NCBI GenBank assembly: GCA_002841595.1
Contig: PHAD01000010.1
Span: 1 to 40,298 of the forward strand
Length of the DNA: 40,298 nt
DNA from: Firmicutes bacterium HGW-Firmicutes-12
GTDB taxonomy: Bacteria > Bacillota > Peptococcia > DRI-13 > PHAD01
Direction: 5' to 3'
The notes beneath the pieces were generated by a model. That model was given only the letters and a program-made list of their open reading frames with translations. It searched no databases and was not told where the DNA came from. Shown here in pieces: positions 4,200-9,339 of the stretch. A program made the position numbers and the translations under genes. How positions within the stretch are numbered: the stretch's first letter is position 1; each line of letters starts with the position of its first letter.

Positions 4200-6800
4200 A
4201 TGATTATTTCTACAGACAAAGAAAAATGCCGCCAGTGTTATGCCTGTGTAAGAAATTGTCCGGTCAAGGCGGTTAGAATCGAAAATGGCCAAGCCGAAGT
4301 AATTGAAAGTCGATGCATTGAGTGTGGTAATTGTCTTACGGTATGTGCGCTGAATGCCAAAAAGGTCATGGATAACCAGTATGATGTAAAAAGACTCTTA
4401 CAAGGCCCAGATCCGGTTTCTGTTATTCTAGCACCATCTTTTGTGGCTAGTTTTAACATCGGTAACCCGATGCAGATAGTTTCCGCGATTAAAGCATTGG
4501 GCTTTTATGATGTTTGGACAGCTGCATTGGGAGCTCAATTTTTGATTCCAGCTTATCAAGACCTGCTGAAAAGTGATCAAATGGTTATTAGTACCCCCTG
4601 CCCCGCAGTTGTTAATATGGTAGAAAAACACTTTCCTACCTTACTTCCCGTTTTAGCCCCCCTCGTTTCACCAATGGTAGCAACGGCTATTTATCTTAAT
4701 AATATAGCACCGAATAGGAAACTGGTTTTTGTGGGTCCCTGCATCGCTAAAAAGGGGGAGGCCCAACTGTACGGCAATTTAATACAGTATGTTTTAACTT
4801 TTACAGAACTAAAAAACCTTATGAATGAGCATATGATAGATATAAAAGCCTGTAAACCAGAGAAGTTTGCCGGACCTATGCCATTTGACGGACAGTTAAT
4901 TCCTCTCTCTGGAGGACTATCTAAAATGCTTAAGAATAGTCAGGATTTCTTAGAGACCGAATTCTTGGTTGTGGATGGACAGGCTGAGTGTTATCAAATG
5001 CTGCAAGCCATTGAGAAAGGTGAAATACAAAGCAAATTAATAGATATTCTTATGTGTCGGGGTTGTATTGACGGTCCTGCTCAGCTAAGTAACGAACATT
5101 ACTTCAACAGAAAAAAGAAGGTGGTTAATTATTTTGCTAGCATACCATTGCAGGAAAGATGTCAAGGAAAGACCACTCTATCAAAAATAGCAGAATTAAA
5201 TTTTCACAGAGAATATATCAAAAGACAATTTTATCGGCTTCAACCTGAAGAAAAAGAGATTCAAAAAATTCTTGCTAGTACTGGAAAACTATCCGAAAGT
5301 GACCTAACTAACTGTGGAGCCTGTGGTTATAGTTCTTGCCGTGAAAAGGCTATTGCTGTTTACGAAGGGATTGCCGAAATAGAGATGTGTTTGCCCTATC
5401 TACTAGATAATAAACAAAAGATACTAGCGCAGTTAAACCAGGAAATGGATATTATCAAAGACTTAAACCACGAACTAGACAGCATCGTAGAGTCTTCTTA
5501 TGATGGGATCTGTGTTACCGACGCTGCTGGTATAATCCTCAAAACCAACAGGGCTTTTGAACATCTCTATGACGTTTATGATATCGTAGGCGTATCTACA
5601 GCAGAATTGGAAAATAAAAGAATACTTTACCCTTCCGGAAGCATACTGGTGATTAAGGAGAAAAGACCGGTTACCTTCATGCAAAATATTCATAATGGGC
5701 GAAGACTCTATGTAACTGCTACTCCTATTTTTGGAACAGATGGAGAGATATTAAAGGTATTAGTTAATGCCAGAGACTTTGAAGAACTGGAAAAATTGAA
5801 GAAACAAATCACATATAGCTTCCTTGACAAGGAAAAAATAATAAACAACTATGTTGACGATGGTATTATAGCAGTTAGCTCTGCTATGGCCTCTGTACTT
5901 GAAGTCTGCAGAAGAATAGCCAAGGTCGATACAACTGTGCTCTTGACCGGTGAATCAGGGGTTGGTAAAGAAGTGCTGGCTAGTTATATTCATCTTCTAA
6001 GTGATAGGAAAGATGGACCTATTATCAAGGTGAACTGTGGTGCCATACCGGACACTTTGATTGAATCCGAACTATTCGGCTATGAGGCTGGGGCCTTCAC
6101 AGGAGCTAATAAAGAAGGGAAACCAGGTTTATTTGAACTTGCCGATGAGGGAACGCTCTTTCTTGATGAAATAGGGGAAATGCCCTATCTTTTGCAGGTA
6201 AAGCTTCTTCAGGTTTTACAGGAGAAGGCTCTAGTGCGTATTGGTGGAGGGAAGCCTATTAAGGTAGATACCAGAATAATTTCAGCTACCAATCGAAATT
6301 TGGAAGAAATGGTAGCGAAAGGGGCCTTCCGAGAGGACCTTTATTATCGGCTTAATGTAGTACCGATAATTGTACCACCGTTGCGCTACAGGAAAGATGA
6401 TATTATTCCTCTGGCTAATTATTCTTTGGAGAAATTCAATAAAAGGTATAATTTAAGTAAATCCTTTGGACGAGAAGTCCTCAGAATAATTCTGAGCTAT
6501 AATTGGCCGGGTAATATTCGAGAGTTGATGAATTTAATAGAAAGACTAGTAGTAACCAGTGAACAGGACATCATCGAGCTGGATATACTTCCGAAATACC
6601 TAATGGAAAGTAGTAAACCTTATTCGAAGCTGAGTAATAAAGAGGAATTACCCAATCTGAGTCAGGCCTTGGAGAATCTAGAGAGGGATATTTTAGATAA
6701 GGCATATAAGTGCAATAATAATAGTTATAAAATAGCGGATATGCTCGGTATTAATCAATCAACTGTAGTCAGGAAGTTGAAAAAGTACGGAATTACGTAA
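4200..6800 (+). CDS. Sigma54-dependent Fis-type activator with N-terminal 2x[4Fe-4S] ferredoxin, [FeFe]-hydrogenase H-cluster-like domain, extra Fe-S domain and PAS domain
   Basis: CRQCYACVRNCP, CIECGNCLTVC; H-cluster-like motifs STPCPAVVNM, VGPCIAKKGE, MCRGCIDGPA; CGACGYSSCREKA; PAS region; AAA+ GESGVGKEV, GAFTGAN, Fis-like HTH at C-terminus. Confidence 0.93.
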   Translation: MIISTDKEKCRQCYACVRNCPVKAVRIENGQAEVIESRCIECGNCLTVCALNAKKVMDNQYDVKRLLQGPDPVSVILAPSFVASFNIGNPMQIVSAIKALGFYDVWTAALGAQFLIPAYQDLLKSDQMVISTPCPAVVNMVEKHFPTLLPVLAPLVSPMVATAIYLNNIAPNRKLVFVGPCIAKKGEAQLYGNLIQYVLTFTELKNLMNEHMIDIKACKPEKFAGPMPFDGQLIPLSGGLSKMLKNSQDFLETEFLVVDGQAECYQMLQAIEKGEIQSKLIDILMCRGCIDGPAQLSNEHYFNRKKKVVNYFASIPLQERCQGKTTLSKIAELNFHREYIKRQFYRLQPEEKEIQKILASTGKLSESDLTNCGACGYSSCREKAIAVYEGIAEIEMCLPYLLDNKQKILAQLNQEMDIIKDLNHELDSIVESSYDGICVTDAAGIILKTNRAFEHLYDVYDIVGVSTAELENKRILYPSGSILVIKEKRPVTFMQNIHNGRRLYVTATPIFGTDGEILKVLVNARDFEELEKLKKQITYSFLDKEKIINNYVDDGIIAVSSAMASVLEVCRRIAKVDTTVLLTGESGVGKEVLASYIHLLSDRKDGPIIKVNCGAIPDTLIESELFGYEAGAFTGANKEGKPGLFELADEGTLFLDEIGEMPYLLQVKLLQVLQEKALVRIGGGKPIKVDTRIISATNRNLEEMVAKGAFREDLYYRLNVVPIIVPPLRYRKDDIIPLANYSLEKFNKRYNLSKSFGREVLRIILSYNWPGNIRELMNLIERLVVTSEQDIIELDILPKYLMESSKPYSKLSNKEELPNLSQALENLERDILDKAYKCNNNSYKIADMLGINQSTVVRKLKKYGIT

Positions 6801-6826
6801 AGCATTAATCTAGAATATTAATGCAG

Positions 6827-6880
6827 ATGCGTTAATGCATTTAATGCAGTAACGCATTAAAAATGCAGTAACGCATTAAA
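6827..6880. promoter_or_regulatory. Array of near-palindromic sites (candidate upstream activating sequences)
   Basis: ATGCGTTAATGCAT (6827-6840), ATGCAGTAACGCAT (6844-6857), ATGCAGTAACGCAT (6863-6876); the last two lie in an exact 19-bp tandem repeat AATGCAGTAACGCATTAAA (6843-6861, 6862-6880). Confidence 0.7.
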
Positions 6881-6893
6881 TGCACAAAAATAT

Positions 6894-6956
6894 AAATTTA
6901 ACATAACAAGCCAGAAACCTCTAGATACAGGTTTCTGGCTTGTTTATGTTAAATTT
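6894..6956. terminator. Long hairpin/terminator after the sigma54 regulator
   Basis: AAATTTAACATAACAAGCCAGAAACCT / AGGTTTCTGGCTTGTTTATGTTAAATTT, ~27-bp stem with one bulge and 8-nt loop. Confidence 0.75.
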
Positions 6957-6973
6957 CAAATCATAAACTTCAT

Positions 6974-6989
6974 TGGCATGATATTTGCA
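6974..6989 (+). promoter_or_regulatory. Sigma54 (-24/-12) promoter for the DUF485/symporter operon
   Basis: TGGCAT-N5-TTGCA with GG (6975-6976) and GC (6987-6988) exactly 12 bp apart. Confidence 0.8.
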
Positions 6990-7084
6990 CTAATAGTAAT
7001 TTTCATATAATATCTATTATTTTTTGATACTAAATTAGAAAGGGGGAGTAGCTTAGCTTTTATAGATCAATTATATGTAAAATA

Positions 7085-7402
7085 ATGGACTTAACATTAA
7101 AGGAGGATACTATGCACGAACCATCCAAAGAATGGAAAAAAGATGATGCTTCATCAATTAAAGAATTACTTGGACTCTGGTTATTCTTGCTCTATTGTTT
7201 AGTGTATATAGGATTTATTACCATCAATGTTGTAAGTCCTAAGTTTATGGCCATTGATGTAGGAAGTTTCAATGTAGCTATAACGTATGGTTTAGGGTTG
7301 ATTGTATTGGCTATGGTTCTTGCTTTTGCTTACAATCATGTCAGTACACATGCTGAGGAACTTCTAAATAATAATCAGGGAAGGGATGGAGAAACTGAAT
7401 GA
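7085..7402 (+). CDS. DUF485 domain membrane protein (YjcH-like partner of symporter)
   Basis: Two-TM small protein whose stop overlaps the start of the SSS transporter. A start at the later ATG (7112, MHEPSK, RBS AAGGAGG) is plausible. Confidence 0.8.
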   Translation: MDLTLKEDTMHEPSKEWKKDDASSIKELLGLWLFLLYCLVYIGFITINVVSPKFMAIDVGSFNVAITYGLGLIVLAMVLAFAYNHVSTHAEELLNNNQGRDGETE

Positions 7403-9339
7403 ATTATATTCCGTCGCCTTGGGCTATAGTCATTTTTATAAGTTTTGTTGTTGCCGTTTTATTAATTTCGTATCATTTTGCCAGAAAAACTAAATCAGCA
7501 TCAGGTTACTTTGCCGCAGGGGGTAATATTCACTGGTCGGTAAACGGAATAGCTTTTGCCGGAGATTATCTGTCGGCAGCATCTTTTTTGGGAATATGCG
7601 GAATGATTGCGGTTTCCGGGTATGATGGTTTCTTGTATTCCATTGGATATTTAGCAGGCTGGATAGTCGCGCTCTTCATTGTAGCTGAGCCCATGAAAAG
7701 AATGGGGAAATATACTTTTACAGATGCTTTGGATTTCAAATTCAATTCTAAAGGTATACAATTGGTTGCCGCTATTAGTACTTTGCTTGTTTCACTATTT
7801 TATTTAATTCCACAGATGGTAGGGGCAGGATCACTGGTAACTCCTCTGCTGGGGCTTCCCCATTGGGCGGGTGTAGTAATGGTTGGAACAATAGTTATTA
7901 TTATTGTAGCCACAGCTGGAATGACTTCCACTACATATGTGCAGTTTTTAAAGGGTGGGCTACTAATTATTTTTTCAATGACTCTAGTTTTTATGGTGTT
8001 TTCTCGAGGTATTTCGACTACCCCCGACCAGGGAGGTGATCTGGAATACCATAAACTTCTTTCTATTAATGTTGTTAATTCTACTGAAGGTGCAGTTGAG
8101 ATAGAGGATAAATCTTATAAAGTTGTAGAAGAGCTAGATGGGAGCGGCTCTGTAAGATTTATTAAAATGTCCAAAGGGCAAGAAGAAACTATTTGGAGAT
8201 TGAACGAGGAGCAGGGAGTCTTAGAGGAGACTCTAGTTGTCAGTGAGCTCGCGGACGGTACAGTGTTATATAATGGAGGACAAAAGGAAGAAGATAAATT
8301 CTTTCAAATAGGACATATGAGTGAAATAGATGGAAAGACGGATACTGAAACGGCCACTCTAAACGTATTTTCATTCATCGAGACTATAAAAAATGGGACT
8401 GTTATAAGATGGAGTACGCAGGTAATTGCTGATAATAACACAAAACATACGATTTATTACCAGAACCCAACTCCTGGAAAGGAAATTTTAAGTCCAGGCT
8501 TGAAATTTAAAGTAGATTCTGAAAAAGGAGCAAAAACCACCGACAAATTAGATTTCATTTCACTAATGCTTGCCTTGTTCCTTGGCACAGCAGCATTACC
8601 ACATATCTTGATTCGGTATTATACGGTGCCTAGTCCTGCTTGTGCCCGTAAGTCAACTATTGTGGCTATTGCAGCCATAGGATTTTTTTATTGCTTAACC
8701 CTGTATTTGGGTCTAGGTGCTATGGTCAGCGGAGTAATTGATATGACTAACAATAACATGTCAGCACCTCTTTTAGCCAAGTCCTTTGGGGTGACTATCT
8801 TTGCGGTTATCTCGGCCATTGCTTTTGCGACGGTGCTGGGCACTGTCAGTGGACTTATCGTGGCTGCCTCGGGTGCAGTTGCCCATGATTTAATGGATAG
8901 GTTCTTAGGTATGAATATGACTGATAAGAAGAAAGTATTTGCCGGCAAGATGGCTGCTGTGGTAGTAGGGATTATCGCCATGATACTGGGTATACTCTTC
9001 AAAGGAATGAACGTATCATTTTTGGTAGGATGGGCCTTTGCTGTGGCAGCATCAGCTAATCTTCCTGCCATAATAATGATTCTATTTTGGAAGAAGACCA
9101 CATCTCAGGGTGTTATATCCTCAATACTTGTTGGATTGACGTCTGCATTGGGACTAATTCTTTTATCGCAAGAAACATTTAATAATGTGTATCATTTGAT
9201 AAATGTTACTGCTCCAGTTCCAATCAATAATCCGGCGATAATTTCTGTACCTTTGAGTTTTATTACATTGGTCGTGGTTTCACTATACACTCAGAATAGG
9301 AAAAAGCCGATTAATGAGCCAATAATGAGTGAAGTTTAA
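7399..9339 (+). CDS. Sodium:solute symporter family transporter (ActP/VC_2705-like)
   Basis: SSS motifs (SASGYFAAGGNIHWSVNGIAFAGDYLSAASFLGICG; GTAALPHILIRYYTVP); ~165-aa hydrophilic insert in the middle. Confidence 0.9.
   Translation: MNYIPSPWAIVIFISFVVAVLLISYHFARKTKSASGYFAAGGNIHWSVNGIAFAGDYLSAASFLGICGMIAVSGYDGFLYSIGYLAGWIVALFIVAEPMKRMGKYTFTDALDFKFNSKGIQLVAAISTLLVSLFYLIPQMVGAGSLVTPLLGLPHWAGVVMVGTIVIIIVATAGMTSTTYVQFLKGGLLIIFSMTLVFMVFSRGISTTPDQGGDLEYHKLLSINVVNSTEGAVEIEDKSYKVVEELDGSGSVRFIKMSKGQEETIWRLNEEQGVLEETLVVSELADGTVLYNGGQKEEDKFFQIGHMSEIDGKTDTETATLNVFSFIETIKNGTVIRWSTQVIADNNTKHTIYYQNPTPGKEILSPGLKFKVDSEKGAKTTDKLDFISLMLALFLGTAALPHILIRYYTVPSPACARKSTIVAIAAIGFFYCLTLYLGLGAMVSGVIDMTNNNMSAPLLAKSFGVTIFAVISAIAFATVLGTVSGLIVAASGAVAHDLMDRFLGMNMTDKKKVFAGKMAAVVVGIIAMILGILFKGMNVSFLVGWAFAVAASANLPAIIMILFWKKTTSQGVISSILVGLTSALGLILLSQETFNNVYHLINVTAPVPINNPAIISVPLSFITLVVVSLYTQNRKKPINEPIMSEV

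Follow-up and report, generated by a model that had tools for sequence, protein, structure and literature searches.

What does a transcriptional activator with a hydrogenase-like sensory part control when its neighbour is a transporter operon, and which signal does it read? The question is raised by a locus on contig PHAD01000010.1 of Firmicutes bacterium HGW-Firmicutes-12, from which a stretch of 40,298 nucleotides (the window) was analysed; the whole assembly (G000) comprises 2.78 Mb on 189 contigs and is 96.8% complete. Here a sigma54 enhancer-binding protein (EBP) with an [FeFe]-hydrogenase-like domain (H-domain) is followed by an array of palindromes, a sigma54 promoter and an operon for a DUF485 protein and a Na+/solute symporter of the SSS family, and a first-pass annotation had proposed a switch responsive to redox state, H2 or CO that governs the transport of acetate or a related acid. 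The reading that we favour, and consider reasonably probable from the sequences compared, is that a sensory activator of the group C (HydS) type acts on its own upstream activating sequences (UAS) and that the sigma54-driven DUF485-SSS operon is a changed target of a family that usually adjoins hydrogenase genes.

Results and Discussion

The EBP (positions 4200..6800, + strand as all features below) has 866 aa, and the domain order proposed for it was recovered completely by Pfam and motif searches on its open reading frame (ORF). Two ferredoxin-type 4Fe-4S motifs at residues 3-52 (4206..4355; Fer4_10/Fer4_7, Pfam span 3-49) precede the H-domain at residues 72-293 (4413..5078; PF02906, Fe_hyd_lg_C, 144.5 bits against a cut-off of 22.1), which carries the motifs STPCP (C134), GPCIAK (C181, K184) and CRGC (C286, C289). 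A C-terminal Fe-S domain with the pattern Cx2Cx4Cx16C (C372, C375, C380, C397; 5307..5396; PF04060, 40 bits, residues 370-399) and a PAS domain at about residues 425-530 (5472..5789; PF00989, 25 bits, residues 425-470; PAS_4 weak) lead to the AAA+ sigma54 activation domain with its lid (5865..6623; PF00158, 234 bits, residues 556-723; PF25601, 76 bits, residues 729-808), in which GESGVGKE and an intact GAFTGA loop are found, and to a Fis-type helix-turn-helix (HTH; SYKIADMLGINQSTVVRKLKKYGI, 6657..6794; PF18024 and PF02954, HTH_50 at residues 820-865). An AlphaFold2 model of residues 1-418 reached a mean pLDDT (predicted local distance difference test) of 94.1, and its best PDB matches in Foldseek were the [FeFe]-hydrogenases CbA5H, DdH, HydA1 and CpI. 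The protein is therefore quite probably a hydrogenase-type sensory activator of the one-component kind. Its two N-terminal 4Fe-4S motifs, H-domain, C-terminal Cx2Cx4Cx16C cluster and PAS domain give the layout of group C/M2f, and this cysteine spacing has been reported for groups C and D of the sensory hydrogenases (PMC8163306). Assignment to group B was tried and rejected, as the TIGR04105 score of 189 is far under the cut-off of 450 and the C-terminal Fe-S domain together with the PAS domain fits group C.

For comparison we gathered 51 sigma54 activators with an H-domain by similarity searches; these include related species, so that the counts given below are not independent events. A search of a contig collection gave, among the matches listed, none above 45% identity, which does not exclude closer relatives. 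The EBP of G002 (L048:7064-9306) is split over two overlapping ORFs of 533 and 217 aa, likely by a frameshift. In an alignment of 48 rows, kinase and HydS forms included, the four cubane cysteines C134, C181, C286 and C289 are invariant, as had been expected from the window protein alone, and so are the ferredoxin cysteines C10, 13, 16, 20, 39, 45 and 49, with C42 nearly so. The first-pass annotation had also read the L1 motif STPCP as having lost the proton-transfer cysteine and as pointing to a sensor. This holds well beyond the window: the position (C299) is Pro, Ala, Tyr, Phe, Ser or His and never Cys in the 48 readable EBPs, and judged from the alignment the loss is a trait of the whole family. 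The Lys of GPCxAK is kept in 51/51 EBPs (K184 in the window, K358 in CpI) and the Ser of APSF in 49 of the 50 readable ones (S80, corresponding to S232 of CpI). The same H-domain, mostly with an L3 motif of the form CxGC, also occurs in histidine-kinase proteins, which make up 52 of the 77 classified loci (L055-L132) and come from metagenome-assembled genomes (MAGs) labelled Bacteroidetes, Ignavibacteria, KSB1, Planctomycetes, Phycisphaerales and others.

Directly past the stop codon of the EBP gene the palindromes had been taken as its binding sites, and their number is indeed far above chance. ATGCGTTAATGCAT at 6827..6840 and two copies of ATGCAGTAACGCAT at 6844..6857 and 6863..6876 were found by motif search, which gives three sites of the consensus ATGCRNNAAYGCAT within 6827-6876 compared to 0.01 expected in the window. 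The consensus has no further exact match in the 2.78 Mb of the assembly, so that by this criterion no second target was found in the own genome; with up to one mismatch allowed, 45 sites including those of the array are obtained, and 19 with the pattern reversed. Downstream of the array, and absent from the first-pass annotation, lies a terminator-like hairpin between the regulator gene and the symporter operon (about 6894..6956; −35.3 kcal/mol, z −10.8), and by eye an inverted repeat is seen at the equivalent place in the related genomes G005 and G001. It is followed by the −24/−12 promoter TGGCATGATATTTGCA at 6974..6989, whose GG to GC distance of 12 agrees with what had been proposed and whose layout is kept in relatives; rpoN was found in the own genome. 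Since the bare sigma54 pattern has an expectation of 0.17 per window, the weight of this site lies on its position and on its conservation in relatives. Downstream of the EBP gene the order is thus UAS array, hairpin, sigma54 site and DUF485-SSS operon.

Both families assigned to the operon were confirmed by Pfam. The DUF485 gene encodes a small YjcH-like membrane protein (7112..7402; PF04341, 39 bits against a cut-off of 28) and overlaps by ATGA with the gene of the SSS-family symporter of the monocarboxylate type (7399..9339, 646 aa; PF00474, SSF, 231 bits). The start of DUF485, placed at 7085 before, is more likely the ATG at 7112, because AAGGAGG lies just upstream and because the sequence then aligns with the start in G005 (MHEPAQEW). 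Acetate as the substrate could not be upheld: the symporter missed the equivalog cut-offs of MctC (452 of 670 bits) and ActP (TIGR02711, 319 of 1099 bits), and the ActP models in general scored between 319 and 399 bits, all under their equivalog cut-offs. The models match the symporter in two stretches, leaving a gap of ~150-180 residues that corresponds to a large hydrophilic insertion.

The neighbourhoods of the relatives show what this type of EBP is usually found with. Of the 51 EBPs, 40 have [FeFe] or [NiFe] hydrogenase genes at a distance of at most 8 kb, compared to none of 12 control pieces taken from the own genome; this neighbour criterion is looser than shown regulation. Two of the remaining EBPs, those of the window and of G005, stand beside the symporter, and nine beside neither (9/51, some at contig ends); the symporter was consequently rejected as the general partner of the family. 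In G005 the whole unit of EBP, UAS, promoter, DUF485 and SSS recurs with flanking genes that differ from those of the window, the EBPs being 77% identical (blastp, 866 aa; 75% in a search with the N-terminal part), the SSS proteins 84% and the DUF485 proteins 83%. Past the symporter, G005 (L040:2895-5247) also encodes a second sigma54 activator of 709 aa; the accompanying sigma54 site is at 2895. The closest relative without symporter, G001, belongs to the same family as the window genome and has an EBP with 59% identity, followed by UAS, inverted repeat, sigma54 site and then a NuoE/NuoF/HydA operon. The hydrogenase targets of G001 (its HydA), L054 and L075 exceed the cut-off for group A6, and the target of L073 is a NiFe(Se) hydrogenase.

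A UAS of the form AATGC-N6-GCATT follows closely on the stop codon of most genes for PAS-containing EBPs. Counting TGC-N6-GCA in the stretch of at most 400 bases behind the EBP stop codon in 13 PAS-type and nine non-PAS loci, we found at least two sites in 9/13 PAS-type loci (window, G005, G001, L075, G446, G408, G250, G275 and G156) and one site in L054 and G344. The non-PAS loci have none (0/9), and in seven of these nine, six [NiFe]-linked and one Hyd-linked, two to five sites of TGT-N10-12-ACA are found instead. A sigma54 site downstream of the EBP is present in the window, G005, G001 and several others. Some of the non-PAS EBPs L246, L247, L252 and their relatives have a good sigma54 site followed, in place of a hydrogenase, by a gene whose start resembles MAPAGSPEALKA and which is by eye of the peptidase U32 type.

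In the EBP tree the window clusters with G005 (100/100) and this pair with G001 (100/100), and G001 and most other PAS-type rows adjoin hydrogenases. That the target changed in the line of the window and G005 is favoured by these sequences because the hydrogenase-linked G001 is placed as the sister. As a control gene we compared HydA (C78 operon), for which the window genome shows 82% identity to G001 and 77% to G005, the reverse of the EBP. Because the two sets of identities run in opposite directions, the unit was likely transferred between families, or old paralogues were sorted, with one control gene being thin evidence for either.

From this arrangement we infer binding, activation, signal, sign and substrate, and conclude that the EBP probably turns on the adjacent organic-acid transporter. 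In the proposed mechanism H2 binding and/or the redox state of the cell would alter the H-domain or the Fe-S clusters, and the change would pass via the C-terminal cluster and the PAS domain and so reach the AAA+ ring; this ring would sit at the three UAS sites that closely follow the stop codon of its own gene. The changed cluster state in the assembly of H-domain, C-terminal cluster and PAS domain would free the ring on the UAS, whereupon it would loop over the terminator and remodel sigma54-RNA polymerase at 6974-6989, so that the DUF485-SSS operon would be switched on and a monocarboxylate taken up. The usual targets of the family would be [FeFe] (group A6) and [NiFe] hydrogenase operons, and in this lineage a transporter stands behind the same arrangement of UAS and promoter. 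Of the signals named in the first-pass annotation, CO appears less likely because the characterised sensory H-domains TamHydS and TmHydS have been reported to be CO-tolerant (PMC8163306).

Several points weigh against an H2-responsive activator with the symporter as its changed target. The symporter linkage is found in two genomes only, TGC-N6-GCA is absent past the EBP stop, in the stretch searched, from the PAS-type loci L070 and L080, and the regulation of DUF485-SSS by the EBP is deduced from adjacency, motifs and conservation only. Moreover, the L3 motif of the window EBP, CRGCIDG, is a C-x-x-C and lacks one residue of the canonical C-x-x-x-C, a shortening that had escaped the first-pass annotation; the motif is CxGC in 51/51 EBPs, so that none has the canonical spacing, whereas the HydS rows without AAA+ mostly have CxGGC. 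In addition, neither HydG nor HydE was found in the own genome and no HydF above cut-off, and HydG and HydE were not found in G005 either, HydF having been searched in the own genome only. G001 carries both HydG and HydE. A full H-cluster is thus perhaps not assembled, which makes H2 a weaker candidate for the signal; as neither HydE nor HydG was recovered from the two symporter genomes, it is uncertain whether H2 is sensed, and the protein may respond to redox alone. Both symporter genomes do contain trimeric-type HydA-like genes, and as these would be expected to need maturases, the failure to find them may reflect incomplete assembly: either hydEFG were lost to assembly gaps or the sensor works without a full H-cluster. 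HydA is also encoded, along with a HydS-like protein and a partial neighbour, on the short contig C157 (L051) of the own genome, which by its GC of 0.430 (maximum of 0.426 in 49 pieces) and its atypical tetranucleotides is a possible contaminant or foreign DNA. A group A-type [FeFe]-hydrogenase of G005 (G005:C72:22809-23664) is spread over two frames that overlap, with a single TAA and, close by, an ambiguous base; it is a broken gene or an assembly fault.

These observations bear directly on the rival explanations. The H-domain could hold a [4Fe-4S] cubane without the [2Fe] site, the Fe-S clusters then reporting low-potential redox and not H2, which we regard as a possibility of clearly lower probability than the favoured reading. 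The missing maturases and the short L3 speak for it, and so does a tally by L3 class in which HydG over cut-off is missing in 15 of 39 genomes with CxGC sensors, including the 99%-complete G055, compared to 0/10 genomes with CxGGC HydS. This tally was made by hand (one-sided hypergeometric p about 0.016) and mixes unlike taxa and MAGs of unknown completeness, so that it is a lead only. Against a sensor of redox alone stand the retained Lys and Ser, which in CpI contact the CN− ligands of the [2Fe] site, and the HydA-like genes, by which the lack of maturases may be a gap. A more far-reaching version, in which the shortened L3 marks a cubane-only redox switch apart from hydrogenases and H-cluster maturation and the module of EBP, UAS, promoter and symporter was passed between families for the control of organic-acid uptake, seems to us doubtful as a whole.

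It is unlikely that the PAS domain is the actual sensor, with a small organic acid as its ligand (perhaps the one that is transported) and the H-domain being only structural or vestigial. Such a ligand would suit a transporter as target, PAS-type EBPs are commonly one-component sensors in Clostridiales according to the text of Nie et al. (PMC6615313), and the non-PAS EBPs of the family are shorter, so the PAS domain contributes something. The cluster cysteines of the H-domain are, however, invariant across the relatives and kept in both symporter EBPs, and the PAS-type relatives mostly adjoin hydrogenases and not transporters. The preference of the family for hydrogenases could also mean that the symporter is a chance neighbour and that the EBP regulates something elsewhere. 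This we consider very improbable, as UAS and sigma54 site separate the EBP gene from the symporter operon, the assembly contains no other exact copy of the UAS, and the unit recurs in G005 within different surroundings. The sensory activator with a changed, sigma54-driven target remains our preferred reading. Its domains, ligand residues, UAS array, promoter and operon can all be read in the window and are conserved in relatives.

Conclusion

In this family the sensor and its transcriptional output are fused and a readable UAS and promoter follow within about 200 bases downstream, which turns the question of how a sensory [FeFe]-hydrogenase relays its signal into a reporter assay. The hydrogenase neighbours of most members of the family suggest that it originally responded to H2 or to hydrogenase-linked redox, and the version with the symporter may serve as a natural test of H-domain signalling without a complete H-cluster. 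In operons of the yjcH-actP type a small DUF485 gene overlaps the gene of an SSS acetate symporter. The gene pair of the window and its overlap are alike, but the symporter stays under the ActP and MctC equivalog cut-offs and the promoter is of the sigma54 type and lies beside an EBP with H-domain.

Fe_hyd_lg_C was listed by Nie et al. in 2019 among the regulatory domains of Clostridiales EBPs (PMC6615313), and the Fer4, Fe_hyd_lg_C and FeS domains given there are of the same kinds as in the window EBP. In the main text of that work hydrogenase is named once and symporter never, and we found no wiring to H2, hydrogenase or symporter described there. In the open-access literature, supplementary files aside, we found no account of hydrogenase or symporter targets of H-domain EBPs; we do not claim priority for this wiring.

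H2 sensing is tied to the transcription of hydrogenase genes in the HoxBC-HoxJ-HoxA system of Ralstonia eutropha (PMC5707799), in which a [NiFe] sensor, a kinase and a regulator are separate, whereas in the window sensor and activator are combined in one [FeFe]-type protein. For the sensory [FeFe]-hydrogenases the relay of the signal has been described as unresolved and the sensory role as putative (PMC8924675, PMC13104023). Among them the group C (M2f) HydS proteins, namely TmHydS, R. albus HydS and HfsB, come closest to the window EBP (PMC8163306, PMC13104023, PMC5707799): they share the two N-terminal 4Fe-4S clusters, the H-domain without C299, the Cx2Cx4Cx16C cluster and the PAS domain, and its family shares their frequent linkage to hydrogenases. 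The window EBP differs from them in its output, a fused sigma54 AAA+/HTH part, in its L3 motif, which is CxGC and not CxxxC, and in its linked target, which is a transporter.

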